Part shown: positions 9,687 through 30,120 of the stretch, in pieces
Position numbering within the stretch: the stretch's first letter is position 1
Layout of the letters: every line of letters begins with the position of its first letter
Source: Amycolatopsis pittospori
Lineage (GTDB): Bacteria > Actinomycetota > Actinomycetes > Mycobacteriales > Pseudonocardiaceae
Direction: 5' to 3'
NCBI RefSeq assembly: GCF_013870525.1
Contig: NZ_JACBXD010000002.1
Span: 62,001-126,000 of the forward strand
DNA: 64,000 nt
Position numbers and translations under genes: made by a program
Notes under the pieces: model-generated
Told to the model about the DNA's origin: nothing
The model's input: the letters and a program-made list of their open reading frames with translations, nothing else
Databases searched by the model: none

Positions 9687-9891
9687 GGGGTTCCTCTGAT
9701 CCGGGGAGGAGGGAGACGGCTCGAGCTGAAGCGCCCCGTGTGGCGCCGGGGAGCGGCGGAAACCTGGGAACGGACACGCGAGGACGTGGTCCCGGGGGCG
9801 CACGCGGAACAGCCGTCATGGACACCTCTTCGTCGAGGCTGAGCTGGATCTTCCCGAGTCTTGTCATGTTCTTGCGCTGAATTGTTCAAGA

Positions 9892-9920
9892 ATTACAGCT
9901 CACTGGCCGTGACAAGTCAA
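9892..9920 (-). promoter_or_regulatory. Sigma70-type promoter for the glucanase gene
   Basis: Read on the minus strand: TTGACT (-35, bases 9920-9915), 17-bp spacer, TGTAAT (-10, bases 9897-9892). Spacing is ideal and the region is AT-richer than its surroundings. Transcription would start near 9885, giving a leader of about 200 nt before ATG 9686. Prediction by eye. Confidence 0.55.
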
Positions 9921-9997
9921 CGCCCAAATTCGTACGATCGACTGGGCGACCTGCGGCTCTGCCGGGGGCAGGCGGGCAAGTTGTTCCGGCACAACAA

Positions 9998-10026
9998 AAA
10001 GAGGCGGTCGTGGCGACCGCCTCTTT
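9998..10026 (-). terminator. Rho-independent terminator of the MFS gene
   Basis: A perfect 13-bp stem (AAAGAGGCGGTCG at 9998-10010 with its complement at 10014-10026) and a 3-base loop. On the minus strand the stem is followed by a run of T (complement of the A-run at 9996-10000). It lies 27 bp after the stop of the transporter gene and separates it from the glucanase promoter. Confidence 0.88.
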
Positions 10027-10052
10027 CCGGGCCTTCAGGAGCCGGAGCTACC

Positions 10053-11288
10053 TCAACGAGCAGGCGCCGGGGCTTGATCGGGCGTCTGGTGATCACCGGA
10101 TGGGCGCACGGTGCCCTTGCCCGCCACCATCGCGACGACAGCCTGGCCGAACGCGGCGACGCACATCAGGATGAGCGGCGCGTGCCAGCCGGAGCTGACG
10201 GAGTGCAGCAACCCGAACAGCACCGGTCCGACCGCCGCCAGCAGGTACCCGACCGACTGCGCCATCGCCGACAGCGCACCCGCTCCAGCCGCGTCCTGGG
10301 CGCGCAGCCCCAGGAAGGCCAAGGCGAGCACCAGGCAGGCACCCCCGCCGAAGCCGAGGACGATGGTCCACACCACCGCCCATTCCGGTGCCGCCAGCAG
10401 ACCGACGTAGCCGGCGAGCATGATCAGCGAGTTCACCGTCGCCATCGCGCGCTGGTCACGCGCCCGGCGCAGCAACGCGGGTGCGGCCAAGCTGGTCAGC
10501 ACCGCGACGACCTGGAACAGGAACAGCAGCCATCCCGCCGACGCCGGGCTGATCCCGGTGTCCTGGACCACCCCGGGAAGCCACGTCACGACGACGTAGA
10601 AGCCCAGTGACTGCAGACCCATGAACGCCGTGACCGCCCACGCCAGACCTGATTTCCAGGGCAGCCGGTGTCCACCGCGCACCGTCGCCGCGACCGGCGG
10701 CGGGGTCCGCAACTGCGGCGACCACAGCACGATCGCCACCAGCGAGAGCACGATCCAGCACCCCAATGCGGTCGACCATCCGCCGGGCGCGACCTCGCTG
10801 ATCGGCACGGCCACCCCGGAGGCCACCGCCGCGACGCCGCCCATGACCGTGGCGTACGCGCTCGTCAACAAGCCCACCTTCGTGGGGAAGTCGCGTTTGA
10901 TGAGGCTCGGCAGGAGCACGTTGCCCACCGCGATACCCGCACCGATCAGCACGGTCCCCCCGAACAGCGTGGCCGCCGACGGGATCCACCGGATCGCGAT
11001 CCCCAGTGTCAGCACCACGAGCGCGCCCGCGAGCACCCGCTCGGGCCCGCGGCGCGCGGCAAGTCGCGGAACCAACGGGGATATCACCGCGAAAGCGAGC
11101 AGGGGCAACGTGTTCAGCAGACCGGCCACCGCAGGGGCCAACCCCAGGTCGGCCTGCACCTGATCCAGCAGCGGGCCGACGCCGGTCAGGCTCGGCCGCA
11201 GGTTCGCCGCGATCACCAGCAAACCCCAGAGCAGTAACGCCTGGCCGGAACGGCGCGTCGGCTGCTGTGCGTCCAATGCGGAACTCAT
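10053..11288 (-). CDS. CynX/NimT-family MFS transporter
   Basis: 411 residues, about twelve hydrophobic helices. 'LLLWGLLVIAANLRPSLTGVGPLL' near the N-terminus is the hallmark of the CynX/NimT (cyanate/2-nitroimidazole) branch of the major facilitator superfamily. It probably exports or imports a small anion or drug across the inner membrane. Start is ATG 11288 (MSSALDAQQ), just before the first helix; the longer frame adds an unlikely Arg-rich leader. Substrate unknown. A clear terminator follows at 9998-10026. Confidence 0.82.
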   Translation of the reverse strand: MSSALDAQQPTRRSGQALLLWGLLVIAANLRPSLTGVGPLLDQVQADLGLAPAVAGLLNTLPLLAFAVISPLVPRLAARRGPERVLAGALVVLTLGIAIRWIPSAATLFGGTVLIGAGIAVGNVLLPSLIKRDFPTKVGLLTSAYATVMGGVAAVASGVAVPISEVAPGGWSTALGCWIVLSLVAIVLWSPQLRTPPPVAATVRGGHRLPWKSGLAWAVTAFMGLQSLGFYVVVTWLPGVVQDTGISPASAGWLLFLFQVVAVLTSLAAPALLRRARDQRAMATVNSLIMLAGYVGLLAAPEWAVVWTIVLGFGGGACLVLALAFLGLRAQDAAGAGALSAMAQSVGYLLAAVGPVLFGLLHSVSSGWHAPLILMCVAAFGQAVVAMVAGKGTVRPSGDHQTPDQAPAPAR

Positions 11289-11428
11289 GTCAGCCGGCCG
11301 CCCTCGTGCAACTGTTCTCCATGCGCCCATGCTCGGGCCATCTCGCGCCGACAACCAGGCCACGCTTAGGCTGGCCCCCACAGGGCTACCCTGAGTAGTG
11401 CGAGCACGGCGAATGGCACCGTAAGCTG

Positions 11429-12271
11429 ATGGGCATGGGTACGCCGTTGGGTGACTTCATCCGAGCCAAACGAGACGCTATCCAGCCGGAATCCCTGGGG
11501 CTGCCGGACCGAGGCCGTCGCCGGTCGCCAGGACTACGCCGGCTGGATCTCGCCACTCGCGCGGGCATCAGCATGGAGTACCTGGCCCGCATCGAGCAGG
11601 GGCGCGACCGTAACCCGTCCACCGCGGTCGTGAACGCGATCGCCGACGCGCTCAGCCTCGCCGCTTCGGAACGCAACCACTTGCGCTACCTCGCGAAGAT
11701 CACCGGGGACGAATGTTCCGCCCATTTCAAGCCCGCACCGCCGCGCCGCCAGGTGCGCTCGTCCGTCATGGACACGTTGCGCATGCTCGAACAGGGAATC
11801 GCCATCGTGACGAACAGGCTGGGCGACGTCCTCGCCTATACGAGCGCCTACGCGACCATCACCAACGGCACCGGACTCCTCGACACCGAAACACCGAACA
11901 TCACGCGCTACGTCTTCACCGATCCACGCGCGCACACCTTCTTCACCGATTGGGACGCCATCGCCGACGAGCAGGCGTTCGACCTGTGGCTAGCGCCCTC
12001 CGTCGAGAATCTCGAATGGCTCACCGCCGAGCTCATCCCGCTCGCGGGTACCGACTTCACCCGCAGGCTGAACCGCCACGAGGTACCGCGACGAGGCGTT
12101 CTGCGACTCAAGCATCCGTCAGGCCACGAACTGCGGCTGACCCGCGAAACCCTGGAACTTCCCGCAGACGATCAGCAGATCGTCGTCTTCCTGCCCGCGG
12201 ACGACCAGACGGCGCAGGCCGTCGACCAGTTGCACCGGCAGTCCAGAGGGCGACTGCGTTCCATCTCGTGA
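11429..12271 (+). CDS. XRE-family regulator with MmyB-like ligand domain
   Basis: 280 residues. N-terminal helix-turn-helix (~residues 35-85, 'LATRAGISMEYLARIEQGRDRNPS') and a C-terminal MmyB-like PAS-related domain ('RLGDVLAYTSAYATI', 'HPSGHELRLTRETLELP'). This family includes pathway regulators such as MmyB. It sits immediately upstream of the biosynthetic region and reads toward it, so a role in switching that region on is plausible but inferred. Two possible ATG starts lie at 11429 and 11435. Confidence 0.82.
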   Translation: MGMGTPLGDFIRAKRDAIQPESLGLPDRGRRRSPGLRRLDLATRAGISMEYLARIEQGRDRNPSTAVVNAIADALSLAASERNHLRYLAKITGDECSAHFKPAPPRRQVRSSVMDTLRMLEQGIAIVTNRLGDVLAYTSAYATITNGTGLLDTETPNITRYVFTDPRAHTFFTDWDAIADEQAFDLWLAPSVENLEWLTAELIPLAGTDFTRRLNRHEVPRRGVLRLKHPSGHELRLTRETLELPADDQQIVVFLPADDQTAQAVDQLHRQSRGRLRSIS

Positions 12272-12744
12272 AAGCAGACGGTCCGGCACAACGGCGTGCC
12301 ACTTCGACAAGAAGATGAAATCACTCAGGGGGATCACATTGCGCCGTGCCGAATAACCACCGCGTCCACTATTCGAACTGACAAAAATCCTTGATTCGAC
12401 GGGACGAGTATTCGTTTCCGTCGCCTTGTCGCGTGAATTAAGAGCATATCCACTTTACCGGCATCGAGCCCGCAGGTCGTTCGACATGCGTGCACACTGG
12501 GGCTTTTCGCGACCCTGGCGGCGCCCATCGCCGTTTCGTCACGGGTCCATTCGGCGTCGCATGGTGAATATCGAACACCGGTCGACCACATAGTGATAAC
12601 CACTCGATCGGACTAGTTCGGCATGTCGACGGCTGTGGTTAGCATGGGGACAACTGGGGCTGGGGAATTCAACTGGGGAAGTCTTTTTGCCTAGGTGGCT
12701 TTTGCGCTGGGGTCGATGGCGTGCGCCATCAACGAGGAGGGAAT
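12272..12744 (+). promoter_or_regulatory. Non-coding control region upstream of the alkaloid operon
   Basis: 473 bp without a convincing gene and AT-richer than the flanks. It holds an inverted repeat TAACCAC (12597-12603)/GTGGTTA (12635-12641) and a direct repeat CAACTGGGG (12651-12659 and 12670-12678, 19 bp apart, near two helical turns). A GAGGAGG ribosome site at 12734-12740 serves the TTG start at 12745. These repeats are candidate binding sites for the XRE or MocR regulator. Confidence 0.5.
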
Positions 12745-13875
12745 TTGATTACTGTAGGAGTAGTGGGTTCCGGGGTAATCGGGTCCTGCGTTTCTCTATT
12801 TCTGGCACAACGCGGCGTGCGCGTACATTGCGTGGATCGCGGCAGACCAGGAGGGCTCACCACCGATGTCAGCTTCGCGAGACTGAGCGCCTATCAGCAG
12901 CCGACGTACCGGCGTTTCGAGTTGAGTCATGCCGGAATCATCGAACACGCCCATTTCGCCGGACTGTTCGATTCGGCGCCCTGGTGGCATCCGACCGGCA
13001 GCCTGGCCTGGGCCGCCGCCGACGGCAGATGCGGCGTCAGCACGCGTTCCTTCGTGGAAGAAGCCGAACGACTCCGATCCTGGGGTTACCGCGTCATCTG
13101 GCATGACGCGGCGAAGGTGGGCCGGGAGCTGGAGCCGGCCATCCCCTTCTCCCCCGCCCAGACCCCGGTCGCGCAACTGCCCGAGGAAGGCTGGATCGAC
13201 GGGCCGCGCATGGTCTCGTCGGTGCTGGACGCGGCGAAATCCATCGGCGAGCTGACCTTGTCGAACGCCGACGTCCAGGAGATCGAGCTCCGCGGCGGAC
13301 AGGTGACGGCACTCCGGCTGGACAACGGGGAACGTCTCGAGGTCGACGCCGTCGTCAACGCGGCCGGGCCGCAGGCCCCCGCCGTGGCGGCGACGCTCGG
13401 ATCGCCCATGGTCCGCGGTATCGCCGACCGCAGCAGTCTCGTGCTCGACCTGGCAGGCGACGGTGATCCGTTGCGGCACGTGCTGCGCGGGGCGGAACTC
13501 CACGCCCGTCCTGCCGGACCTGGCCGGGTGCGAGTGCGGTCCGAACAGGTCGATGCCGTTCTGACCGGAAAGACCGAGTCCGACCTCGGCCGCGACAATG
13601 TCGAGAACCTGCTGGACCGCGCCTACCGCACGATTCCGGCACTGAAAGCCTTCACGATCGAACGGAAACGCATCGGTACCGCGGTGTTCCCGGCGGATGG
13701 ACTGCCCAGCGTCGGGCCGTTGTCCACCGTATCCGGCTATTACGAGGCGTTCGCCAACAGCGGTGTCATTCTCGCTCCGCTCATCGGGCGGGCCTTGGCG
13801 ACCCAGATCACCACCGGCGAAGTCCCTTCACTCTTGCGCGACTGTTCACCCGATCGCCTTCGGGTAGCCGCGTGA
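12745..13875 (+). CDS. FAD-dependent amine/amino-acid oxidoreductase (DAO/DadA-like)
   Basis: 376 residues. Rossmann motif GSGVIG at residues ~7-12, acidic end of strand two ('VHCVDRG'), and the C-terminal FAD motif 'YEAFANSGVILAPLIGRALA' of the D-amino-acid oxidase/glycine oxidase family. Such enzymes oxidise a C-N bond to an imine and pass electrons to O2 or a carrier. TTG at 12745 is chosen because GAGGAGG lies 4 bp upstream; the GTG at 12721 lacks such a site. It is the first gene of the run with the cyclase-like protein, P450 and trpC. Inferred role: dehydrogenation of a tetrahydro-beta-carboline. Confidence 0.82.
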   Translation: MITVGVVGSGVIGSCVSLFLAQRGVRVHCVDRGRPGGLTTDVSFARLSAYQQPTYRRFELSHAGIIEHAHFAGLFDSAPWWHPTGSLAWAAADGRCGVSTRSFVEEAERLRSWGYRVIWHDAAKVGRELEPAIPFSPAQTPVAQLPEEGWIDGPRMVSSVLDAAKSIGELTLSNADVQEIELRGGQVTALRLDNGERLEVDAVVNAAGPQAPAVAATLGSPMVRGIADRSSLVLDLAGDGDPLRHVLRGAELHARPAGPGRVRVRSEQVDAVLTGKTESDLGRDNVENLLDRAYRTIPALKAFTIERKRIGTAVFPADGLPSVGPLSTVSGYYEAFANSGVILAPLIGRALATQITTGEVPSLLRDCSPDRLRVAA

Positions 13876-13927
13876 ACGTCAGTCAAACCATCGAGTAGAT
13901 CACTGCCATATGTCCTTAGGGGGAAGC

Positions 13928-14887
13928 ATGTCCGCCGCATACCCAGATCTCAAGGAATCCGCATTTCCCGATCTCAAGGAATTCACCCGGAAACTGGCGG
14001 CCGAGGAACCGTCGGAGATTCGACAGATGCGCACCGGAACGCTCAATGAAGCGCCTGGATCCTATGACCAGTACTTCACCACGTGGGATTTCGCGAACGG
14101 CATCGTTCGTGACTATTCGATGAATCTCTATCAGCTGGTCCGGATGGCCCACGACGAGAGCCTGCCCGTCGAGAACGTGTTGACGGTCTTCCGGACGTGG
14201 GACCCGATCTACAGCAAGTACCTCGGCTACAGCGGTTTCCCGACGCTGGCCGAATACGCCGAGCGGATCCACGCCCCCGTGGCGGACCGCAGCGAGCTCG
14301 TGGACAGGCTGGCCACCTTCACCGAATACGTCAACCGGCTGACCGCTTGGTCGCACCACTATTTCCCCTGGCACGTGGGCGAGCACTATCGCTACAACTC
14401 GAGCGAGCTCGCGCTCCGGCAGGAGTACACCCCCACGCCGGTCAGCGTCGCGGAGGAGCCGTCACGGCGCATTCCCATCCGGCTCACCTGGGAGCCGCTC
14501 GGTCTGAGCGTCGACGCCGAGCTCGCCTGCGACCTCAACGAGCGGCTGTGCGAGGACTTCCTCGCCTGCCTGCCGTTCACCGTGCTGCAGGACCACGCCG
14601 TGGTCAGCGGCGAGTCCATGTACGCGTGGGCGCCGTTGGTCAGCGTCGCGCCGACGCCGGTGACCGAGCGCATCTGCGACGCGCCACCCGGCAGGCTCCG
14701 TTTCAGCCAGGCGACCGGCAACAAGCTCATCGTCCAATACGGACCGACGACGGAGACCCTGCGCGGACCCGTTCTCGGCAAGGTGGTCGACGAGCACATC
14801 GACCGGCTGCCCAAGGTCGGCCAGGCGGTCTGGGAAAGCACCTTCCGCACGAAGGACCTCATCTGGATCACCGCGGAACGCCTCTGA
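13928..14887 (+). CDS. Cucumopine synthase/DUF3830-like protein, candidate Pictet-Spengler cyclase
   Basis: 319 residues, no signal peptide. The N-terminus has a short duplicated PDLKE motif, then a helical part (~45-155) and a second half (~165-319) with the cyclophilin-like pattern of DUF3830/cucumopine synthase proteins: 'LTWEPLGLSVDAELACDLN', 'LPFTVLQDHAVVSGES'. Cucumopine synthase condenses histidine with 2-oxoglutarate in a Pictet-Spengler-like ring closure. The bacterial beta-carboline cyclases McbB and KslB act on tryptophan. Given the trp genes around it, tryptophan plus an oxo acid is my proposed substrate pair. ATG 13928 follows AGGGGGAAG; an ATG at 13910 is possible. Family match is by eye. 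Confidence 0.55.
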   Translation: MSAAYPDLKESAFPDLKEFTRKLAAEEPSEIRQMRTGTLNEAPGSYDQYFTTWDFANGIVRDYSMNLYQLVRMAHDESLPVENVLTVFRTWDPIYSKYLGYSGFPTLAEYAERIHAPVADRSELVDRLATFTEYVNRLTAWSHHYFPWHVGEHYRYNSSELALRQEYTPTPVSVAEEPSRRIPIRLTWEPLGLSVDAELACDLNERLCEDFLACLPFTVLQDHAVVSGESMYAWAPLVSVAPTPVTERICDAPPGRLRFSQATGNKLIVQYGPTTETLRGPVLGKVVDEHIDRLPKVGQAVWESTFRTKDLIWITAERL

Positions 14888-14935
14888 CCGCCGGCTCCGG
14901 CGGACACGCACCGAAGTTGTAGGGAGAGGCAGGAA

Positions 14936-16114
14936 GTGACCAGTACATCCAGCAAACCGACCAGGGATCTGTTGTTCCCCGATCTGAGCGACTCGATCGA
15001 GGAACGTATCGCCTGGTTCCAGCACCAGCACCGGGTCGAGCCACTGCGGCACCGTGCGGAATACAACCTGTGGGAGGTGTTCCGGTACGAGGACGTCCAA
15101 CGGGTGCTGAAGGATCCGGACACCTTCTCGGTGACCAACAAGACCCACATGGGTCTGCCGTTCTCGTTCGGCCGGGCGGACATCCAGGAGCACCGCTTCC
15201 TGCGCAGTTTCGTGGCCCGTTCCTTCGTGCCGAGCAACATCGAAGGCCAGGCGTCCGACTTCGCCCCGATGGTCGACGCGTTGCTGAAGCCCGCACTGGC
15301 TTCCGGTCGCCTGGAGGTACTCGGCGATCTGGGCTATCCCCTCATGGAACACGTGATCGGGCATATGTTCGGGCTGCGGATCCCCGGGCCCGACCGCTTC
15401 CGGCAATGGTCGGACCAGATGTTCGGTCAGCTGGTCGGGATCTTCCAGCCGGATCACGCCGAGGTCGTCGGCATGCTCACCGATCAGCTCGACCAGCGTA
15501 AGCAGAAGCCGACCGACGATCTGATGAGCGCGTTGCTGCACGCACGGGCGAAGGACGACCGGCTGCCCGAAGAGAAGATCATCCACATGTGCCTGGACCT
15601 GGTGACGGCGGGCAACGCGCCGACATCACTGTTGCTGTCCTACATGTTCGCCAGGTTCTGCAGGAATCCGGAGTTCTACCAGTCCCTGCGGAGCGATCCT
15701 TCGCTGATCCCCGGCGCGATCGAGGAGGTCTTGCGCTTCGACTTCTCGTGGTTCAACCTCTGGCGTACCGCCCGGCACGACACCGAACTGGGCGGACGCG
15801 AGATCAAAGCGGGAAGCTACATCGTGGTCTGGGACTCGGCGGCCAACTTCGACGAGGCACAGTTCCCGGAGGCGCACCGGTTCGACATCACGCGCTCGCC
15901 GAACCCGCATCTGACCTTCGGGCAGGGAATGTACATCTGCCTGGGGCTGCCGCTGGTACGCACGCTCGGTCGTGTCGTAGTGGAGCGAGTGGTCGAGACC
16001 TTCGAAGAGATCCGCTTCGATCCTGAACGTCCGATGCGGACTCAAGAGCAGATGATCGACTACGTCGTCTCGCTCGACACGCTCGTGTCGCCGGCGAACG
16101 CGTCCGTTTCCTAG
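14936..16114 (+). CDS. Cytochrome P450 with atypical I-helix
   Basis: 392 residues, a normal size for a soluble actinomycete P450. Haem loop 'FGQGMYICLGLPLVR' holds the Cys ligand (usual His before it is Tyr). K-helix E-x-x-R is 'EEVLRFD'. The I-helix reads 'TAGNAPTSLLL' (~residue 222), so the usual acid-threonine pair of [AG]Gx[DE]T is replaced by Ala-Pro with Thr one place later. That suggests unusual oxygen activation or a non-hydroxylating reaction. GTG start at 14936 after an AGGGAGAGG site. It lies 48 bp after the cyclase-like gene, clearly in the same operon. Confidence 0.88.
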   Translation: MTSTSSKPTRDLLFPDLSDSIEERIAWFQHQHRVEPLRHRAEYNLWEVFRYEDVQRVLKDPDTFSVTNKTHMGLPFSFGRADIQEHRFLRSFVARSFVPSNIEGQASDFAPMVDALLKPALASGRLEVLGDLGYPLMEHVIGHMFGLRIPGPDRFRQWSDQMFGQLVGIFQPDHAEVVGMLTDQLDQRKQKPTDDLMSALLHARAKDDRLPEEKIIHMCLDLVTAGNAPTSLLLSYMFARFCRNPEFYQSLRSDPSLIPGAIEEVLRFDFSWFNLWRTARHDTELGGREIKAGSYIVVWDSAANFDEAQFPEAHRFDITRSPNPHLTFGQGMYICLGLPLVRTLGRVVVERVVETFEEIRFDPERPMRTQEQMIDYVVSLDTLVSPANASVS

Positions 16115-16138
16115 AAAGCGCGGACAGGGGGCGTCCAG

Positions 16139-16948
16139 GTGAACGTGTTGGCGGAAATCGTGGCCGGAGTACGCACGGACCTGCCTGCCCGGATGGCCGA
16201 GGTGAGCCCGGCCGCCATGCGCCGCCGCGCCGAGGCCCGTGGCCCCCGGATGACGCCCGACGCCGTGGGTGCCGCATTGCGCGGCACCCGCGGCGTCCGG
16301 CTCATCGCCGAGGTCAAACGCTTCAGCCCGGCCATGGGGCGGCTGGCGGCGATCGAGCGGCCGGAGGCGCTCGCCGCCGAGTACGTGGCGGGCGGGGCGG
16401 CCGCGATCAGCGTGCTGACCGAACAGAGACATTTCCGCGGCTCGTTGGACGACCTGCGTGCCGTCCGTGATTCGGTCAGCGTTCCTTTGCTGCGCAAGGA
16501 TTTCATCATTGATCCGTATCAGCTGGCCGAAGCCGCCGCCGCCGGTGCCGACCTGGTGCTGCTGATCGTCGCGGCGTTGAGCGGGCGGCAACTCGACGGA
16601 CTGCTGAAGGAGGCGGCCGAGTACGGACTGGCCGTGCTGGTGGAGACGCACACCGAGCGGGAAGTCGCGACCGCGGTGGCCGCCGGCGCCCGGATCATCG
16701 GTGTGAACGCCAGGGATCTGACGACGTTGCGGGTCGATCGTGACACTTTTCCCCGGCTGGCCGCCCGGATACCCGCCGACGTCGTCACGGTCGCGGAGTC
16801 CGGTGTACGGGGGCCGGCCGATGTCGGCTCGTACGCCGGAGCCGGTGCCGACGCGGTTCTCGTCGGCTCGGCTCTCGTCACCGACGACCGTCCCGCCGAC
16901 GCGGTCGCGGCGATGCTGGCCGCGGGCCGGGGGGAGGCCGTGGAATGA
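16139..16948 (+). CDS. trpC: Indole-3-glycerol phosphate synthase (dedicated copy)
   Basis: 269 residues, full-length TIM barrel. Motifs: 'IAEVKRFSP' (catalytic Lys), 'VLTEQRHFRGS', 'PLLRKDFIIDPYQ' (second Lys), 'GADLVLLI', 'GVNARDL', 'VAESGV' and 'VLVGSAL' at the phosphate site. It converts carboxyphenylamino-deoxyribulose phosphate to indole-3-glycerol phosphate in tryptophan synthesis. GTG start at 16139. It lies 24 bp after the P450 gene and ends the operon. Isolation from trpA, trpB and trpF suggests an extra copy feeding a specialised pathway, as in the CDA cluster of Streptomyces coelicolor. Confidence 0.93.
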   Translation: MNVLAEIVAGVRTDLPARMAEVSPAAMRRRAEARGPRMTPDAVGAALRGTRGVRLIAEVKRFSPAMGRLAAIERPEALAAEYVAGGAAAISVLTEQRHFRGSLDDLRAVRDSVSVPLLRKDFIIDPYQLAEAAAAGADLVLLIVAALSGRQLDGLLKEAAEYGLAVLVETHTEREVATAVAAGARIIGVNARDLTTLRVDRDTFPRLAARIPADVVTVAESGVRGPADVGSYAGAGADAVLVGSALVTDDRPADAVAAMLAAGRGEAVE

Positions 16949-16955
16949 CCGCAGG

Positions 16956-18023
16956 CTATTCGGCCAGCTTGCCCGTCACCCTGACCCACTGGCCGAGCAA
17001 GGCCCCGGCGTCACCACTGTCGACGGCGCGAGCGGCCTTCTCGAAACACACACCCAGCCGCTCCGTGATCGGCGCGGCGCCGGGTGTGGCCGAGGCGAGG
17101 CCCGCGGCGGCGGAAAGGAGGACCGCGTCACGGACCGGCCCTGGTGTGCCGTCGAGGAAATCCAGGGTGATCTCGGCGTTGCGCGCCGGCCCTCCCCCAC
17201 GCAACCGGTCCGGTGACACCAGTGGGATACCGAGGTCGCGTGGGTCGAAGGTCTCCTGCCGAACGGTGCCGTCGTACACGGTCCACACCTGGGAGGTCGT
17301 GGTGACCGTCAGCTCGTCGAGTCCGTCGTCGCCGCGGAAGACCAGGGCCGAGCGTCCTCGACGGGCCAGGACCCCGGCGACGATCGGCGCCATCCGGGCT
17401 TCGGCCACACCGATGGCGGACGCGGCCGGCGCGGCGGGATTCGTCAACGGGCCCAGCACATTGAAGACCGTCGGTACGCCGAGTTGCCTGCGTACCGGGG
17501 AAGCATGGCGCATCGCGGGATGGAACACCGGGGCGAAGCAGAACGCGATACCCACCTCGGAAAGCACTCGGGGCACCGTCGCCGCCGGAAGGTCGATGAC
17601 GACGCCGAGTGCTTCGAGCAGATCGGCGGAACCACACTCCGAAGACGCCGACCTGTTGCCGTGCTTGACGATCCGCGCTCCCGCCGCCGCGGCGACGATC
17701 GCCGACATGGTGGAGATGTTCACCGTGCCCGCCTGGTCACCACCGGTGCCGACGATGTCCAGCAAGGGCCCGTCCACGGCGACCTCGACCGCATGCGCTT
17801 CCATCGCCCGCACCAGGCCGTCGAGTTCCGGCACGGTCTCCCCTTTGGACCGCAGGCCGATCAGCAGGCCGCTCAGCCTGGCCTCGCCGGCCGCGCCGCG
17901 CATGACCTCTCCCAGTGCCCACTCCGTGTCGTCCGCGGCGAGGTCACGCCCCTGGGTGAGCGTCGAAAGAATTTCCGCCCACCGCTTCCGATCCGTCTCG
18001 ATCGTGGTCTCCCCGCCCGCCAT
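16956..18023 (-). CDS. trpD: Anthranilate phosphoribosyltransferase (dedicated copy)
   Basis: 355 residues. Glycine-rich PRPP site 'DIVGTGGDQAGTVNIST' (~88-104), 'VKHGNRSASSECGSADLLE' and 'LGPLTNPA' are standard TrpD signatures. It transfers phosphoribosyl from PRPP to anthranilate. ATG 18023 has GGAGGAGG 5 bp upstream. It converges on trpC with a 7-bp gap and is divergent from the MocR-type regulator, with which it shares a 107-bp control region at 18024-18130. Confidence 0.93.
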   Translation of the reverse strand: MAGGETTIETDRKRWAEILSTLTQGRDLAADDTEWALGEVMRGAAGEARLSGLLIGLRSKGETVPELDGLVRAMEAHAVEVAVDGPLLDIVGTGGDQAGTVNISTMSAIVAAAAGARIVKHGNRSASSECGSADLLEALGVVIDLPAATVPRVLSEVGIAFCFAPVFHPAMRHASPVRRQLGVPTVFNVLGPLTNPAAPAASAIGVAEARMAPIVAGVLARRGRSALVFRGDDGLDELTVTTTSQVWTVYDGTVRQETFDPRDLGIPLVSPDRLRGGGPARNAEITLDFLDGTPGPVRDAVLLSAAAGLASATPGAAPITERLGVCFEKAARAVDSGDAGALLGQWVRVTGKLAE

Positions 18024-18082
18024 CGTTCCTCCTCCGCTCAGGTGCCGTATTCAGCGTTCCAGGCGGCGGAGGTACCGGCCAA

Positions 18083-18113
18083 GACCATTCGACACCGCTT
18101 GAAGCGGACCATT
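18083..18113. promoter_or_regulatory. Candidate operator between trpD and the MocR-type gene
   Basis: Direct repeats GACCATT at 18083-18089 and 18107-18113 (24 bp from start to start) flank a perfect inverted repeat CCGCTT-G-AAGCGG at 18095-18107. MocR proteins such as GabR and PdxR bind pairs of short direct repeats in the divergent region beside their own gene, which is exactly this position. Assignment is by pattern and location only. Confidence 0.55.
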
Positions 18114-18130
18114 TCCGTCGTGGGGGAAGA

Positions 18131-19516
18131 ATGTTGCCGATCACCATCGACCGTGATTCGCCGTTGTCCTTGACCGCGCAGGTCGAATCGGCGATTCGTG
18201 AACGGGTCACGGACAGCACGTTGCACCAAGGGGTGCGGCTACCGTCGAGCCGGACGCTCGCCGCGGACCTCGGGGTCTCGCGCGGCGTCGTGGTCCAGGC
18301 CTACGAACAGCTGATCGCCGAGGGATACCTCAGAGCCACGCAAGGATCGGGCACCCAAGTGGCGACACATCTGCCTCGTCTCGGCGCGGCCGGGGCAAGG
18401 CGGCCCGCCGAGCTCGCGGACGTCCGGTTCGACCTTCGGGTCGACGCGACCAGTACGGCGTTCTTCCCCGAACGTGAATGGCTGCACGCCTACCAGCAGA
18501 TGGCTCGCTCGATCGGGGGCACCGGTCCCCGGCGGCACCCGCTCGGTGTCGCGGAACTGCGTACCGAACTCGCCGCGTACCTCGGCCGTTCGCGAGGGGT
18601 ACTGACCGGCGCTTCCGAGGTCGTCGTCGCCGCGGACTTCGCGCATACCTTCGAGGGCCTGTGCCACGCCCTGCACGACCTCGGGGTCGACCACATCGCC
18701 GTGGAGAACCCCGGTACGCCGTGGCTGGCCGGGATCGCGGAACGCGCGGGCCTGCGAGTGACCGGAGTCCCGGTGGACCGCGAGGGCATCGACGTCGAAG
18801 CGCTCGCTCGATCCGAAGCCCGGGCGGTGCTGGTCACTCCGGTCTCACAGGTACCGACCGGTGTCATGCTCTCGGCGAGCCGCCGGAAGGAGCTCCTGCG
18901 CTGGGCCGACCAGGTGGACGGCTGGGTGGTCGAACACGACCGGGACGGCGACCTGTGGTTCGGCGCCGGCAGCGGTCCGCTCGCCCTGCAACGGCATCGG
19001 ACGCACCGGGTGGTCTACGCCGGGTCGACGCGTGGCCTGCTCGGTCCCGGCCTGCGGCTCGGCTGGTCGGTGGTACCCGGCGTGGTCGCCGAACGGCTCG
19101 GCCGAGCACGGCTGGGGGCGCCGGACGCGCTGACCCAGCTGGCGTTCGGCCACTTCGTCTCCTCGGGTCTGCTCGATCAGCACATCCGGCAGATCCGAGG
19201 CACCTGCCGGGCGAGACGCTCGGCTTTGGGAGACGCCGTCGAGGAACACCTGCCGGGTGCCCGGATGACCGGTGTACCGGCGGGCACGCACGCGTACGTC
19301 GCGCTGCCGGCCGGAATCGACGACGGGCGGCTGGCCGTCGAAGCCAGGCGGCGATCGGCTCTCGTCCAGCCGGTCCGGTACTTCCAGCTCGACCGCCGCC
19401 CGGTCTCGTCCGGGGTGGTGCTCGGTTACGGCGCTGTGCGGCGCGGGCGGCTCGCGGACTCCGTCAAGTTGCTCGCGAGCGTGCTGGGCGAGGTCGGCGG
19501 TCTGCTCGCGTCCTGA
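18131..19516 (+). CDS. MocR-like GntR/aminotransferase regulator lacking the PLP lysine
   Basis: 461 residues. GntR winged helix at ~10-80 ('LPSSRTLAADLGVSRGVVVQ'), linker, then a fold-type I aminotransferase-like domain from ~110. In active MocR proteins the PLP lysine sits in [GS]xFSKxLxPGLRLG; here the segment is 'YAGSTRGLLGPGLRLGW', so the Lys position is Gly. 'TPVSQVPTG' replaces the usual TPxHQxPxG and 'EHDRDGD' replaces the EDDYDxE region. It therefore probably cannot bind PLP covalently and may sense another ligand, perhaps an amino acid or pathway intermediate. It overlaps the trpG end by 53 bp in convergent orientation. Confidence 0.85.
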   Translation: MLPITIDRDSPLSLTAQVESAIRERVTDSTLHQGVRLPSSRTLAADLGVSRGVVVQAYEQLIAEGYLRATQGSGTQVATHLPRLGAAGARRPAELADVRFDLRVDATSTAFFPEREWLHAYQQMARSIGGTGPRRHPLGVAELRTELAAYLGRSRGVLTGASEVVVAADFAHTFEGLCHALHDLGVDHIAVENPGTPWLAGIAERAGLRVTGVPVDREGIDVEALARSEARAVLVTPVSQVPTGVMLSASRRKELLRWADQVDGWVVEHDRDGDLWFGAGSGPLALQRHRTHRVVYAGSTRGLLGPGLRLGWSVVPGVVAERLGRARLGAPDALTQLAFGHFVSSGLLDQHIRQIRGTCRARRSALGDAVEEHLPGARMTGVPAGTHAYVALPAGIDDGRLAVEARRRSALVQPVRYFQLDRRPVSSGVVLGYGAVRRGRLADSVKLLASVLGEVGGLLAS

Positions 19517-20078
19517 CACCGGCCAGGAAGTTCGCCATCATTCTCGTGCCGTCGACGGTGGCGACGCTCTCCGGATGGAACTGCACGCCTTCGATGGGCA
19601 GTGCACGGTGCCGCATTCCCATCACATAGCCGTCGTCGAGAGACCGTGCCGTGCGGACGAGATCGGCGGGCAACGGCTCGGCGACGACTATCGAGTGATA
19701 CCGGGTGACCTCGTGCCGCTCGGGCAAACCCGCGTACACACCTCGGCCGTCGTGCTCGATCACACTCGTGCGTCCGTGCATGAGGTTGTCCGCGAGCCGG
19801 ACCGCACCACCGAAGGCCAAGGCGATGGCCTGGTGTCCCAGGCACACCCCGAGCAACGGCACTTCGCCCGCGAACCGGCGGGCCAGGGCCACGTGGCCGG
19901 AATCGGCGGGATGACCGGGGCCCGGTCCCAGCACGACCGCGTCCGGTCGCGTCGCCGCCAGCTCCTCCGGTGTGCGGGTGCCGGAGCGTACGACCACGGT
20001 GTCCGCACCGAGCTGTCGCAGATATTGGTCGATGATGTGGACGAAGCTGTCGAAGGCGTCCACCACGAGCACCTTCAC
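19464..20078 (-). CDS. trpG: Anthranilate synthase component II, glutamine amidotransferase
   Basis: 204 residues of class I glutamine amidotransferase. The nucleophile elbow 'LLGVCLGHQAI' (Cys ~80) and the His-Glu pair in 'GVQFHPES' give a full catalytic triad. It supplies ammonia to TrpE for anthranilate formation. GTG 20078 overlaps the trpE stop as GTGA and has GGAGGAG upstream, so the two are translationally coupled. A longer in-frame ATG at 20180 lies inside trpE and is rejected. The 3' end overlaps the MocR-type gene by 53 bp. Confidence 0.9.
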   Translation of the reverse strand: MKVLVVDAFDSFVHIIDQYLRQLGADTVVVRSGTRTPEELAATRPDAVVLGPGPGHPADSGHVALARRFAGEVPLLGVCLGHQAIALAFGGAVRLADNLMHGRTSVIEHDGRGVYAGLPERHEVTRYHSIVVAEPLPADLVRTARSLDDGYVMGMRHRALPIEGVQFHPESVATVDGTRMMANFLAGVRTRADRRPRPARSRAT

Positions 20079-21523
20079 GCCGGCTCCTCCCCGGTGAGGG
20101 CCCAATAGGTGGCCCCCATCTTGGCCAAGGTCTCGTCCCATTCCCGCTCCGGTTCGGACAGCGCCACCACACCCGCGCAACTCTGCGTGGAGTACCGGTG
20201 GTCACCCGGCGACGGCTCGTGGTGCGTGATCGTCCGGATGCACAACGCCAGCTCGGCCCAGCCCCGCAGGTCGACGAGACCGACGGCGCCCGCGTAGACG
20301 CCGCGGCGCTCGACCTCGATCTCGTCGATGATCTCCATCGCGCGCAGCTTCGGCGCCCCGGTCATCGTCCCGGCGGGGAAGGTGGCGCACAGGACGTCCC
20401 AGACGTCACGTCCGCCTGCCATCGTTCCGGTCACCGTGGACACCAGATGGAACACGTGCGAGAAGGCCTCGACCGCCATCAGGTCGTCCACCGAGAGGGT
20501 GCCCGGGCGGCAGACCCGGCCGATGTCGTTGCGGCAGAGGTCGACCAGCATGACGTGCTCGGCCTGTTCCTTGGTGCTGGCCACCAGCTCCTTGATCCGG
20601 CGCTCGTTGTCCGCACCGGCCGGGTCACGGCGTGTGGTGCCCGCGATCGGTCGCATGGTGATCCTGGCGTCGTCGTCGACCCGGAAGAGAACCTCCGGGC
20701 TCGCCCCGACGAGTGTCTTGCCCGATTGGGTGACCAGATACATGTAGGGCGAGGGATTTCGGTGCCGCAAGCGGCGGTAGACCTCTTCCGGCGTCAGGTC
20801 GCTGTGCACGTCGATCCGGTGCCCTACCTGGATCTGGTAGATGTCCCCGACGCGGATGTGCTCGAGACAGCGCTCGACCCAGCCGAGGAAGGTGCGCTTC
20901 TCGACGGAGTCGCGCACTGCCCGCGGTTCGGTCGCTTCCGGCATCGGCCCATCGACACCGGGAATGTTCCGCAGGACGTGCTCAGGCGGCGGCTCCGGGA
21001 GGTCGGGCCCGGTGGCCACGTGCACGACCGGTGGTGCGCCCTCGCGGTCGAACCACATGGTGTGCTGGAACAGGGTGAGCGTCAGGTCCGGCACGTCGGG
21101 TTCGCCGCGGCGTGGCGGCAGTTCCTCCATCACTGCGGCGGCGTCATAACCGACGGTGGTGAGAAACCCGAAGGCGAATCCGCGCACCTCGGTCCGCACC
21201 CGGAACGAGCCGGTGACCTCGCGCAGCGTGTCCCAGACGTTCGTCGTGGTCCGGCCGCAGAGGGCCCGGAGCAGATCCGCCACCCGGCCGTCACCCCGCA
21301 CGGTCACCTCGTCGCCGATCACGGAGATCTCGGCCAGCCTGCCGAACCCCACCACGGTTCCCGTACTCCTGCGGGAGTCGAGATTGTCCCGATGCAGGTC
21401 TTCCAGTAGGTAGACGTCCTCGGCGCCGAACCGACGGCACAGTGCGTTCCGCACCGCCAGTGCGGACGCGGTGGTTCGCACGGTGATCGCGTCGACGGCG
21501 ACGTCCACGAATTGCGTCCTCAC
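20075..21523 (-). CDS. trpE: Anthranilate synthase component I
   Basis: 482 residues of the chorismate-binding family. 'PIAGTTRRD', 'DLCRNDIGRV', 'VEAFSHVFHLVS' and 'FPAGTMTGAPKLRAMEII' mark the active site. With TrpG it converts chorismate to anthranilate. Near the N-terminus the tryptophan-inhibition motif LLES of normal TrpE reads 'LLED', losing the Ser that binds tryptophan in studied enzymes. The N-terminal domain is otherwise quite divergent. GTG start at 21523 has GGGAGG upstream. The neighbours trpD, trpC and trpG argue against aminodeoxychorismate synthase. Divergent from the DAHP synthase. Confidence 0.88.
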   Translation of the reverse strand: MRTQFVDVAVDAITVRTTASALAVRNALCRRFGAEDVYLLEDLHRDNLDSRRSTGTVVGFGRLAEISVIGDEVTVRGDGRVADLLRALCGRTTTNVWDTLREVTGSFRVRTEVRGFAFGFLTTVGYDAAAVMEELPPRRGEPDVPDLTLTLFQHTMWFDREGAPPVVHVATGPDLPEPPPEHVLRNIPGVDGPMPEATEPRAVRDSVEKRTFLGWVERCLEHIRVGDIYQIQVGHRIDVHSDLTPEEVYRRLRHRNPSPYMYLVTQSGKTLVGASPEVLFRVDDDARITMRPIAGTTRRDPAGADNERRIKELVASTKEQAEHVMLVDLCRNDIGRVCRPGTLSVDDLMAVEAFSHVFHLVSTVTGTMAGGRDVWDVLCATFPAGTMTGAPKLRAMEIIDEIEVERRGVYAGAVGLVDLRGWAELALCIRTITHHEPSPGDHRYSTQSCAGVVALSEPEREWDETLAKMGATYWALTGEEPA

Positions 21524-21664
21524 GCTATCGCACCTCCCTATTCAGCCGCTGGAAAAGAAAACCAAGCCGGGAGCGCCGGCGCCCAGACCACTTCGGCTCC
21601 GCTCGACCGGACCACTCGGCGAATTCATTGCGCACAAGCGCGAAATCATGGTGATCTGCCTTTC

Positions 21665-22993
21665 GTGACGAATTCCGAAGTACTCGCCCCTTGGCGGGAC
21701 GCGACCGCGGCGCACCAGCCGGAATGGCCGGATCGCGCCGCCCTGCGCGAAGTGCTCACCAGGCTGTCGGCCGCGCCCGGTCTGGTCACCCCGCGCGCGT
21801 GCGACGAACTGCGGCACCGGCTCGCGGAGGTGGCCTCCGGCCGGGCCTTCGCGCTGCAGGGCGGCGACTGCGCGGAGACCTTCGACGGTGCGACACCGAG
21901 GGCGATCCAGGACAAGACCAAGACTTTGCTGCAGATGGCCGTCGTGCTGACCTACGCAGCCGCGATGCCGATCGTCAAGATCGGCCGGATGGCCGGGCAA
22001 TACGCGAAGCCGCGATCGAGTTCCACCGAGACTCGCGACGGTGTCACCCTGCCGGTGTACCGGGGCGACGCGGTGAACGGCTACCCCTTCGATGCCGCGG
22101 CGCGGCGACCGGATCCGGCACGGCTGTGGCGGATGTACGAGGCATCGAGATCCACCTTGGGCATCGTGGACGGGTACGCGCGTAACGGATACGCGGGCCT
22201 CGATCAGCTGCATCGATGGAACCGGGACTTCGTGGCGAACTCGCCGTCGGGTGCCCGGTACGAGGAGGTGGCCTACGAAATCGATCGCGCGTTACGGTTC
22301 ATGCGCGCCTGCGGTGCCCAGCCCGAAGAACTGCGCTCAGCCGAGATCTTCGCCAGCCACGAGGGCCTGCTGCTGGACTACGAGGACACGCTCACCCGCT
22401 CCGATCACGGCACGGGACGGGACTATGCCACCAGCGGTCACATGTTGTGGATCGGCGAACGCACCCGCGCGTTGGACGGTGCCCACGTCGCCTATTTCAG
22501 AAGCATCGCGAATCCCGTCGGAGTCAAGCTCGGCCCGGCGACGACACCCGCCGAAGTGCAATCCTATGTGGACATCCTCGACCCGGACCGCGAACCGGGC
22601 AGGCTGACCTTCATCACCCGGATGGGCGCGCGGCAGATCCGTGACCGGCTGCCCGCCCTGATCCAGGCCGTCCAAGCCGTCGACGGAGTGCCTGTCTGGA
22701 TCTGCGATCCGATGCATGGCAACACCTTCACGGCCGCGAGCGGCCATAAGACACGGCTGTTCGACGACGTCGTCGACGAGGTGCGCGGATTCTTCGAAGT
22801 CCACCGCGCACTCGGCACGCATCCCGGTGGCGTCCATGTGGAGTTCACCGGCGAGGACGTGACCGAGTGCGTCGGTGGCAGCGACGAAGTCCTGGTCGAC
22901 CACCTGCATCACCGCTACGAGTCCACGTGCGATCCCAGGCTCAACCGCAGTCAGTCGCTCGACCTCGCGTTCGACATCGCCGAGCTACTTTGA
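21665..22993 (+). CDS. Class II 3-deoxy-7-phosphoheptulonate (DAHP) synthase
   Basis: 442 residues. 'LQGGDCAETF' (metal Cys), 'KIGRMAGQYAKPRS', 'YRGDAVNG', 'ASHEGLLLDYE', 'WIGERTR', 'NPVGVKLGP', 'WICDPMHGNT' and 'HPGGVHVEFTG' follow the plant/Mycobacterium type II enzymes. It condenses erythrose 4-phosphate with phosphoenolpyruvate, the entry to the shikimate pathway. Compared with M. tuberculosis AroG from memory, the N-terminal regulatory extension is about 20 residues shorter, while the helical insert near residue 180 is kept. GTG 21665 is the best start although its ribosome site is weak. Presumed to raise chorismate supply for trpEGDC. Confidence 0.9.
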   Translation: MTNSEVLAPWRDATAAHQPEWPDRAALREVLTRLSAAPGLVTPRACDELRHRLAEVASGRAFALQGGDCAETFDGATPRAIQDKTKTLLQMAVVLTYAAAMPIVKIGRMAGQYAKPRSSSTETRDGVTLPVYRGDAVNGYPFDAAARRPDPARLWRMYEASRSTLGIVDGYARNGYAGLDQLHRWNRDFVANSPSGARYEEVAYEIDRALRFMRACGAQPEELRSAEIFASHEGLLLDYEDTLTRSDHGTGRDYATSGHMLWIGERTRALDGAHVAYFRSIANPVGVKLGPATTPAEVQSYVDILDPDREPGRLTFITRMGARQIRDRLPALIQAVQAVDGVPVWICDPMHGNTFTAASGHKTRLFDDVVDEVRGFFEVHRALGTHPGGVHVEFTGEDVTECVGGSDEVLVDHLHHRYESTCDPRLNRSQSLDLAFDIAELL

Positions 22994-23031: not shown

Positions 23032-24399
23032 CTACCAGGTCCGTCCACAATGCTCGATCGCGTCGAGCAGGATGGTGCCGGCGAGGTCGATCACCTCGGC
23101 GGTCACGGTGAGCGGGGGCATCAGCCGGATCACGCTGTCGTCGCGACCGCCGAGTTCGACGATCAGCCCTCGCCGCAACGCGTACGCCTGGACGGCGCGG
23201 GCGTACTGGCCGGCCGGACGGCCGTCGCGGCAGGCCAGTTCGATCCCCCACATCAAGCCGAGACCGCGGACTTCGCGGACCCAGGGCCGATCGCGCAGGA
23301 CGCCGAGACGTCGTTCGAGCTGGTGCCCGCGGTGCCGGACGTTGCCCAGCACGTCGTCGCGCCGGACGACGTGGACGGCCGCGGTGCCCGCCGCGAACGC
23401 CGCCTGGTTGCCGCGGAACGTGCCCGTATGCGCGCCGGGTGCCCAGCCGTCCAGTCGCTCGTCGTAGAAGATGACCGCCACCGGCAGGCCCATTCCGCTC
23501 AACGCCTTCGAAGCGATGATCACGTCGGGCTCGATGTCGTACTGCTCGAACGCGAACCAGGTCCCGGTACGGCCACAACCGGTCTGCACCTCGTCGACCA
23601 CGAGCGGGATGTCCAGCTCCCTGGTCAGCGCGCGGACACGCCGGACGAAGTCGTGGTCCGCGGGGATCACCCCGCCTTCACCCTGCACGATCTCCAGGAG
23701 TACCGCGGCGGGAAGGGGAATTCCGCCGTTGGGGTCGCGCAGCGACCGCTCCAGCAGACCCACGCAGTTGGTTTCGCAGGTGTCCCGGGAAAGTCCCAAA
23801 GGGCACTGGGCGCAGTAGGAGTACGGGAAGAAATGGACGCCGGGTACGCCGTTGGCTATCGGCCGTTTCTGGGCGACGAGCCCGGTCAACGCCATCGCGG
23901 CGTGACTCGACCCGTGGAATCCGCCCTGGAAGGACACCAGGTCGCCGCGACCGGTCGCGGTCTTGCAGAGCTTGATCGCGGCGTCCACGGCGTTCGCCCC
24001 GCCCGGACCGCAGAAGTGCATCCGCATTCGCGAACGCAGGCCCGGGGGCAGCATCGACAGCTGGGCGTCGACGAACTCGCGTTTGGCCGGCGTCGGGAAG
24101 TCCAGGCCGTGCGTGAGCACGTGCAGTTGTCCGGTGGCCGCGTCCACCACTTCGGGATGGTTGTGGCCCAGGGAAAGCACGCCCGCTCCGGCCAGGAAGT
24201 CGATGAAGACGTTCCCGTCCACGTCCCACAGGTAGCTGCCGTCACCACCGGCGATCGCGATCGGCAGGTTGCGGGGGTAGACCCGGGCGTTGGATTCCCA
24301 GCGTCGCTGGTGTTCGAGGAACTCCGCCGAGCGGGGGCCGGGCAGGTCGCCGTCGACCCGCGGCGACAGGGCCGGTTTCGCCGTGGGGGTGTGGGTCAT
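23032..24399 (-). CDS. Diaminobutyrate--2-oxoglutarate aminotransferase (class III)
   Basis: 455 residues. PLP lysine in 'IIASKALSGMGLP' (~300), 'VVDEVQTGCGRTG' (Asp for pyridine nitrogen) and 'HTGTFRGNQAAF'. The motif 'FPYSYCAQCPLGL' is typical of the siderophore/antibiotic Dab aminotransferases (RhbA/PvdH type). It makes L-2,4-diaminobutyrate from aspartate semialdehyde and glutamate. ATG 24399 overlaps the NRPS stop as ATGA, with AAGGAG upstream. Together with the aspartate kinase it supplies the monomer for the NRPS. No ectA or ectC is nearby, so ectoine synthesis is unlikely. It converges on the DAHP synthase with 38 bp between. Confidence 0.85.
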   Translation of the reverse strand: MTHTPTAKPALSPRVDGDLPGPRSAEFLEHQRRWESNARVYPRNLPIAIAGGDGSYLWDVDGNVFIDFLAGAGVLSLGHNHPEVVDAATGQLHVLTHGLDFPTPAKREFVDAQLSMLPPGLRSRMRMHFCGPGGANAVDAAIKLCKTATGRGDLVSFQGGFHGSSHAAMALTGLVAQKRPIANGVPGVHFFPYSYCAQCPLGLSRDTCETNCVGLLERSLRDPNGGIPLPAAVLLEIVQGEGGVIPADHDFVRRVRALTRELDIPLVVDEVQTGCGRTGTWFAFEQYDIEPDVIIASKALSGMGLPVAVIFYDERLDGWAPGAHTGTFRGNQAAFAAGTAAVHVVRRDDVLGNVRHRGHQLERRLGVLRDRPWVREVRGLGLMWGIELACRDGRPAGQYARAVQAYALRRGLIVELGGRDDSVIRLMPPLTVTAEVIDLAGTILLDAIEHCGRTW

Positions 24400-29725: not shown

Positions 29726-30120
29726 TTTCCTTAATAGATCGCTATCATGAGTCAGAGTTGCACTCGCCACGGAAGTGCTTGCAGGACAACACTTCTTCAG
29801 GTCCAGGGCGTGGCCGCCGGGCGGCCGGTGCGACAGAAATGGAAAGTAGTGCGAGAAACTTTGCGCGGGTACCTCCATCCGTACGAAAGCGCAGACCGCC
29901 CACACCTTCAGGCCATAACACGATGACATCGAGCAAGGACATGCGGATGAACAGCCCACTTCGATGGAATTAGGGCAAATGAATGAAGTATTCGCATCGA
30001 CTTCGAAATTCGGCCGGATATCCGAGCCGGGGTCCGGAAATTAATTAGTCAGCGCACGGAAAGGTACGATATCCTGCCTCGGCGGGGAGAAATCCGTCAA
30101 AGCGGTCATGGGGGTTGATA
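29726..30120. promoter_or_regulatory. AT-richer divergent control region
   Basis: 395 bp between the aspartate kinase (minus) and the aldo/keto reductase (plus). It is visibly richer in A and T than the coding DNA, for instance around 29735-29765 and 29970-30075, and holds no gene I trust. It should contain promoters for both directions; a weak -10-like TACGAT lies at 30065-30070. It marks the right edge of the biosynthetic region. Confidence 0.45.

Follow-up and report, generated by a model that had tools for sequence, protein, structure and literature searches.

The 64,000-nt stretch of Amycolatopsis pittospori DNA analysed here (contig NZ_JACBXD010000002.1, positions 62,001 to 126,000; hereafter the window) contains a run of genes related to the ksl alkaloid genes. 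The run is composed of an enzyme triad, namely a flavin adenine dinucleotide (FAD)-dependent oxidase, a Pictet-Spenglerase and a cytochrome P450, followed by trpC, trpD, trpG, trpE, a gene for a class II 3-deoxy-D-arabino-heptulosonate 7-phosphate (DAHP) synthase and a MocR-type regulator gene. The source is an 8.42-Mb draft genome in 192 contigs. The nearest named locus found is that of Amycolatopsis roodepoortensis (L001), whose proteins are each 94-96% identical to those of the window run. A preliminary description, made from the DNA, had named the FAD oxidase, the Pictet-Spenglerase-like protein, the P450, TrpC, TrpD, TrpG, TrpE and the DAHP synthase. All of these are encoded where it had placed them and match their families clearly, TrpE with a score below the curated cut-off. 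The MocR-type regulator gene had been overlooked, and the conserved cluster also includes genes for a major facilitator superfamily (MFS) transporter and an MmyB-type regulator (Table 1). As that description had also said, trpA, trpB and trpF are absent from the run.

Six ksl loci were compared: the window, L001, Actinosynnema sp. ALI-1.44 (L002), Streptomyces sp. B-S-A8 (L003 and L043), Streptomyces sp. ISL-94 (L004) and L101. The triad is found in the window, L001, L002, L003, L004 and L101. The last of these is taken as the ksl locus of Kitasatospora setae: it contains verbatim the protein P0024, listed for Kitasatospora and residue for residue identical to KslB of the PDB entries 9ns6 and 9k0a, with an FAD oxidase (P0253) encoded before it and a P450 (P0129) after it. 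The window triad (12745-16114) has the same gene order and strand as that of L101, with 63, 66 and 74% identity for FAD oxidase, Pictet-Spenglerase and P450, respectively. It spans 3370 bases from position 12745; the distance from the P0253 start to the P0129 stop in L101 is 3377 bases. For the FAD oxidase the TTG at 12745 was chosen as start, aligned with the start of the Actinosynnema homologue. According to the available text of one report, a 3389-bp ksl amplicon from K. setae NBRC 14216 increased the amounts of JBIR-133 and JBIR-134 in Streptomyces sp. PRh3 host strains; a rifampicin-resistant PRh3 host formed small amounts of both already without ksl, and kitasetaline was obtained with ksl in that mutant host only (PMC12735770). 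KslB is described, in the accessible part of another report, as coupling L-tryptophan and 2-oxoglutarate, the β-carboline then arising by decarboxylation and oxidation (PMC12513458).

Table 1 Features of the conserved stretch in the window, with the family matches or comparisons that support each assignment
Feature	Position	Strand	Support
MFS transporter, CynX/NimT-like, likely exporter of the cluster	10053..11381	-	TIGR00896, 367 bits, under cut-off 406; homologues in L001, L002, L004, L043, L101
MmyB-type helix-turn-helix (HTH) regulator, MLTR ligand-binding domain	11429..12271	+	PF17765 and PF13560; adjoins MFS gene in L001, L002, L004, L043, L101
KslA-position FAD-dependent oxidase, DAO fold	12745..13875	+	PF01266, 5e-35; 63% to gene preceding kslB in L101
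KslB-type Pictet-Spenglerase, helical bundle then cyclophilin-like domain	13928..14887	+	Cucumopine_C PF18631, 1.7e-18; PDB sequence matches
KslC-position cytochrome P450, I-helix AGNAPT, haem motif FGQGMYICLG	14936..16114	+	PF00067, 1.5e-20; 74% to P0129
trpC, indole-3-glycerol phosphate synthase	16139..16948	+	NF001369, 334 bits, over cut-off 329
trpD, anthranilate phosphoribosyltransferase	16956..18023	-	TIGR01245, 344 bits, over cut-off 199
Predicted operator, direct repeat GACCATT-N17-GACCATT, trpD/mocR divergent promoter	18083..18113	.	pattern match
MocR/GntR-aminotransferase-type regulator without pyridoxal 5'-phosphate (PLP) lysine (Gly302)	18131..19516	+	NF052282, 289 bits, under cut-off 320; GabR 4n0b alignment
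trpG, glutamine amidotransferase, GTG start overlapping trpE end	19464..20078	-	TIGR00566, 178 bits, over cut-off 121
trpE, anthranilate synthase component I, LLED replacing LLES	20075..21523	-	TIGR00564, 339 bits, under cut-off 518
Predicted operator, direct repeat GACCACT-N17-GACCACT, trpE/DAHP-synthase divergent promoter	21586..21616	.	pattern match
Class II DAHP synthase, start taken as GTG 21665	21665..22993	+	TIGR01358, 661 bits, over cut-off 615

The preliminary description had proposed a comparison of the 13928-14887 protein with KslB, McbB and cucumopine synthase and had named a lack of similarity to Pictet-Spengler or cyclophilin-like cyclases as evidence against its reading; such similarity was found. 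The protein matches five distinct PDB sequences. Its identity to KslB (9ns6, 9k0a and companion entries) is 66-70% at 483-484 bits, and the titles of these entries describe the free enzyme, a complex with L-Trp and complexes with the products that L-Trp forms with 2-oxoglutarate and with succinic semialdehyde, respectively. The highest score, about 607-610 bits at ~80% identity, is obtained with 9uwa, which is the Actinosynnema sp. ALI-1.44 homologue residue for residue. McbB (3x27; McbB is its title in the structure search, and the sequence file calls it cucumopine synthase) matches with 119 bits. Both domains are common to the two proteins, and 3x27 aligns in two pieces in swapped domain order, so that the KslB type is a circular permutation of the McbB type. 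In the McbB family proper, the cyclophilin-like domain precedes the helical bundle; the window protein has the reverse order. A catalytic glutamate of McbB, close to position 97 if the offset assumed for the numbering holds, aligns with Glu276 of the window protein. A streptonigrin StnK2-like product had been the first guess and was dropped once the PDB titles identified KslB. The AlphaFold model of the enzyme is weak (mean pLDDT, the predicted local distance difference test score, 64 from 7 sequences) and was used solely to retrieve PDB titles.

KslB-type proteins are rare in the searched genomes. In the genus, 3 of 80 genomes gave a match, namely the source genome itself, one at 95% in place of L001 and one at 32%. 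The phylum search returned the source genome only (1 of 396), and the order search returned three of 397, the source at full length and two at 32-33%. In the family of G419, 24 of 394 genomes matched, two of them at 70 and 74% and the other 22 weakly (26-39%). Two KslB-order proteins with ~50% identity to that of the window (P0079 and P0088) are attributed to a 67.7-Mb contig of the plant Cinchona calisaya, pointing either to a transfer from bacteria into the plant or to contamination. On an Agrobacterium vitis pTi contig (L010) and a Microvirga contig (L012), at ~8650-10900, a KslB-order protein adjoins an McbB-order relative in opposite orientation.

The three triad families occur together on at least nine contigs, counted among the first 24 of 120, 20 of 111 and 27 of 59 proteins listed and on the longest contig of each 90%-identity cluster. 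Two of the 13 contigs >5 kb with a KslC-type P450 have no partner among the listed proteins; one of them is from A. roodepoortensis, whose locus L001 has all three. In the P450s, the I-helix motif AGNAPL or AGNAPT is present in all 22 relatives at ≥71% identity (two of them fragments), a group that includes the window P450, and the L101 protein shares AGNAP. At the proline position, 89 more distant P450s have Thr in 77 cases, Ala in 6, Pro in 3, Ser in 2 and Leu in 1. Proline in place of the I-helix threonine is the rule in the KslC-type clade, without being unique to it. In the CYP152 fatty-acid decarboxylases, the conserved I-helix threonine is likewise replaced by proline. By this analogy the exchange would suit a decarboxylase role of the P450 but proves nothing, and the KslC-type decarboxylase activity of the window protein is putative. 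A P450 decarboxylase and a vinyl intermediate reportedly belong to the ksl pathway, as the title of one paper has it.

Taken together, the locus combines relatives of the three ksl enzymes with a tryptophan-supply block of five trp and DAHP-synthase genes and a regulator gene (hereafter the trp block), and would very probably convert tryptophan and 2-oxoglutarate to a 1-substituted β-carboline-3-carboxylic acid, of which a reactive 1-vinyl form is likely. Judged by homology, the KslB-like enzyme would join L-Trp to 2-oxoglutarate (or, alternatively, to succinic semialdehyde), oxidation of the newly formed ring would fall to the FAD oxidase, and the P450 may decarboxylate the side chain oxidatively to a vinyl group able to take up thiols. 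DAHP synthase, TrpE/G, TrpD and TrpC would raise the flux to indole-3-glycerol phosphate, from which housekeeping TrpA/TrpB would complete tryptophan; for the TrpF step we assume an isomerase of the PriA type. No match to TrpF (PF00697) was found in the source draft genome (0 of 1). The tryptophan-derived β-carboline that had been suggested before, as in kitasetaline, is thereby supported through gene-by-gene orthology with the KslB locus.

A use of another aldehyde or keto acid by the triad, for example a sugar phosphate, which would lead to a differently substituted β-carboline, is considered rather unlikely. The partner assigned to StnK2 in streptonigrin is erythrose 4-phosphate, which counts for this alternative, as does the identity of the window protein to KslB, which at 66-70% is not near-identity. 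Glyceraldehyde or its phosphate is furthermore hypothesised for pyridindolol in the available text of PMC7955054. There, both the proposed pyridindolol cluster and streptonigrin StnK2/StnP2 have a Pictet-Spenglerase adjoining an FAD oxidase, as in the window, but rows 1-10 of Table 4 list no P450 or trp gene for the pyridindolol cluster (PMC7955054). What argues for 2-oxoglutarate is that the FAD oxidase and the P450 also match those of the KslB locus, the P450 sharing the clade-wide AGNAP with L101. The Pictet-Spenglerase relatives of S. monashensis and Nonomuraea (61 and 57% identity), on the other hand, have no match to the window FAD oxidase or trp genes in 20 kb and a P450 match of at most 26%, as a different product would suggest.

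Some genes of the trp block are found in five of the six ksl loci, and the block is complete in three (window, L001 and Streptomyces sp. B-S-A8). It is located downstream of the triad in the window and L001. In Streptomyces sp. B-S-A8 it lies upstream of the triad, split over L003 and L043, both of which end within the MocR-type gene; we infer that the two are linked. The upstream block of Streptomyces sp. ISL-94 lacks trpG and trpE, its DAHP synthase match covers 80 residues, and trpD has an in-frame gap of ~79 residues. In L101, the genes around the triad are 76% (trpE), 77% (trpG), 65% (MocR-type), 74% (trpD), 73% (MFS) and 71% (MmyB-type) identical to those of the window. The gene set and order, which had seemed unfamiliar in the preliminary description, are therefore of a known type, since trpE, trpG, trpD and the genes for the MocR-type protein, the MFS transporter and a second regulator are present at the KslB locus as well. 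In contrast to the window, the block of L101 is upstream of the triad, trpD and the MFS gene have no trpC between them, and only short matches to DAHP synthase are left. Actinosynnema sp. ALI-1.44 has the MFS gene, the MmyB-type gene and the triad in the order of the window (76-86% identity) but no trp block within the 20 kb read. A separate set of DAHP synthase, trpC, trpD, trpG and trpE with ~44-50% identity is found elsewhere in that genome (L045, G778:C39:129000-144000). This pattern of loss and position points to supply genes that can be lost or relocated. No description of a trp block at ksl was met in the literature searched, which covered the primary ksl papers incompletely, so that the block is not claimed to be unreported.

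The genomes of A. roodepoortensis and both Streptomyces encode another TrpC (54-59% identity) away from the ksl locus and close to a TrpE, as well as additional class II DAHP synthases; the separate locus of A. roodepoortensis runs on into trpB and trpA. In the source draft genome, the trpC and the class II DAHP synthase gene of the window are the only copies found, and trpD is the only gene with a second copy above the cut-off. Besides the window TrpE, three more chorismate-binding enzymes are encoded (four in all), with 31-38% identity to it. Comparison of the 15-kb A. roodepoortensis trp locus with the draft gave no orthologous match, just cross-matches to the window trpC/trpE (66-67%) and short repeats, with 40 of 1467 candidates scored. 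An assembly gap is the simpler reading of this, though not a proved one. A replacement of the housekeeping pathway by the window block was considered and rejected: the 15-kb locus of the sister species is without orthologue in the draft with its neighbours included, and the other DAHP synthase gene of the sister lies ~19 kb from that trpC.

The TrpE proteins encoded at ksl loci differ from others at one short stretch. LLED or LLDD, with Asp replacing Ser, is present in all four ksl-linked proteins (window, L001, L003 and L101; L004 has none), and LLES or LFES in all five other TrpE proteins of the alignment (L042, L044, L045, L046 and L047). That of L045 belongs to the second trp set mentioned above, which is not an evident housekeeping locus, and the protein of L028 was left uncounted as it has no such stretch. 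The LLES serine has a role in the tryptophan inhibition of enterobacterial TrpE, and the exchange to Asp is predicted to weaken feedback inhibition by tryptophan.

These comparisons bear on whether the trp block could be a general or housekeeping tryptophan operon that merely adjoins the alkaloid genes. It could serve growth, as it contains the sole trpC and the sole class II DAHP synthase gene found in the source draft, and the Actinosynnema triad stands without it. Against this, the block accompanies the triad in three genera and in two different positions, and its full-length genes are 65-80% identical between the Amycolatopsis and the Streptomyces/Kitasatospora loci, compared with 38-59% for other trp copies. 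As the sister genome moreover has a separate trp locus and the block TrpE is without the LLES serine, a housekeeping operon is judged quite improbable, and a supply function for the alkaloid pathway is preferred.

The MocR-type protein consists of a GntR-type HTH (PF00392) and an aminotransferase-like domain (PF00155) and matches GabR with 135 bits. In the alignment to GabR 4n0b, Gly302 is opposite Lys312, the PLP-binding lysine. None of the five ksl-linked orthologues has Lys at this position; two have Gly, as in the window, and three Ala, as in L101. A direct repeat with a period of 24, G(A/T)CCANT-N17-G(A/G)CCANT, is located in the trpD/mocR and trpE/DAHP-synthase divergent promoters, with 10 sites over five genomes (window, L001, L003/L043, L004 and L101). 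The pattern was derived by eye from those 10 sites, which match it by construction. The stricter form GACCAYT-N17-GACCAYT has exact matches in the window at the two trp promoters only. The wider pattern gave 21 matches in 1.47 million strand-bases (overlapping loci included), which are the 10 sites and overlapping copies, against 0.24 expected by base composition. Up to two mismatches yielded four further window matches, one of them with a single mismatch, where 1.2 were expected. The MocR-like protein is predicted to bind these repeats and to switch both divergent trp promoters. In Streptomyces sp. B-S-A8 some tens of bases separate the stop codon of the DAHP synthase gene from the start of kslA on the same strand, so the trpE/DAHP-synthase promoter may drive the triad there; it cannot do so in Amycolatopsis, where the triad lies upstream.

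Tentatively, and with considerable doubt about the proposal as a whole, the regulator could work without PLP chemistry and sense tryptophan or a β-carboline directly. Via the 24-base-period operators, it would match a feedback-resistant private shikimate-to-indole branch to the demand of a thiol-reactive vinyl-β-carboline pathway. The block would then be a portable supply-and-sensor cassette that shifted its position relative to the alkaloid genes and decayed in several lineages.

Several observations weigh against the interpretation of the locus as an alkaloid cluster with its own tryptophan supply. Its product, its feedback resistance and the way its regulator behaves are predicted. The triad can do without the trp block, which is missing in the 20 kb read around the triad of Actinosynnema and has been lost in part from two further loci. 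That trpC and the DAHP synthase gene are extra copies rests on the sister genome, the source draft having single ones. With 339 bits against a cut-off of 518, the TrpE-like protein is an outlying TrpE and possibly performs another chorismate reaction. Finally, no copy of the repeat precedes kslA in the Amycolatopsis arrangement, even at two mismatches, which leaves a co-regulation of the alkaloid genes unsupported there.

The stretch conserved across the related loci is 10053-22993. Its right edge at 22993 fits the comparison with L001, which covers ~1.9 kb beyond the DAHP synthase gene and in which the genes that follow in the window, for a diaminobutyrate aminotransferase, a Pls-like protein and an aspartate kinase, have no match. 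In the window, a diaminobutyrate transaminase (TIGR00709), a Pls/PosA-type synthetase (TIGR02353, 699 bits) and an aspartate kinase are encoded side by side at 23032-29959. This set is as expected for a poly-diaminobutyrate-type cluster and lies outside the ksl locus. Although the gap to the DAHP synthase gene is only ~40 bases, one larger cluster including these genes is scarcely credible, as they are without match also in L002-L004. To the left of the conserved stretch, a 1234-residue open reading frame at 6099-9803 reads like a secreted protein, and an acyl-CoA ligase-like gene at 4577-5998 (NF004837, 229 bits, under cut-off) had no tblastn match in L001-L004. Rfam gave no match at the gathering threshold in 9000-30500.

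The window locus is thus a new and complete example of an already known kind of cluster, the ksl kind, and orthology gives good support to its proposed chemistry. A small alkaloid pathway that was characterised recently is extended by it to a complete locus including a precursor supply. With more supply genes than the K. setae locus, it is a ready expression target, and its MocR-like regulator, which lacks the PLP lysine, makes for a compact test case. Related loci that have naturally lost single supply genes give hints of the steps that can be spared.

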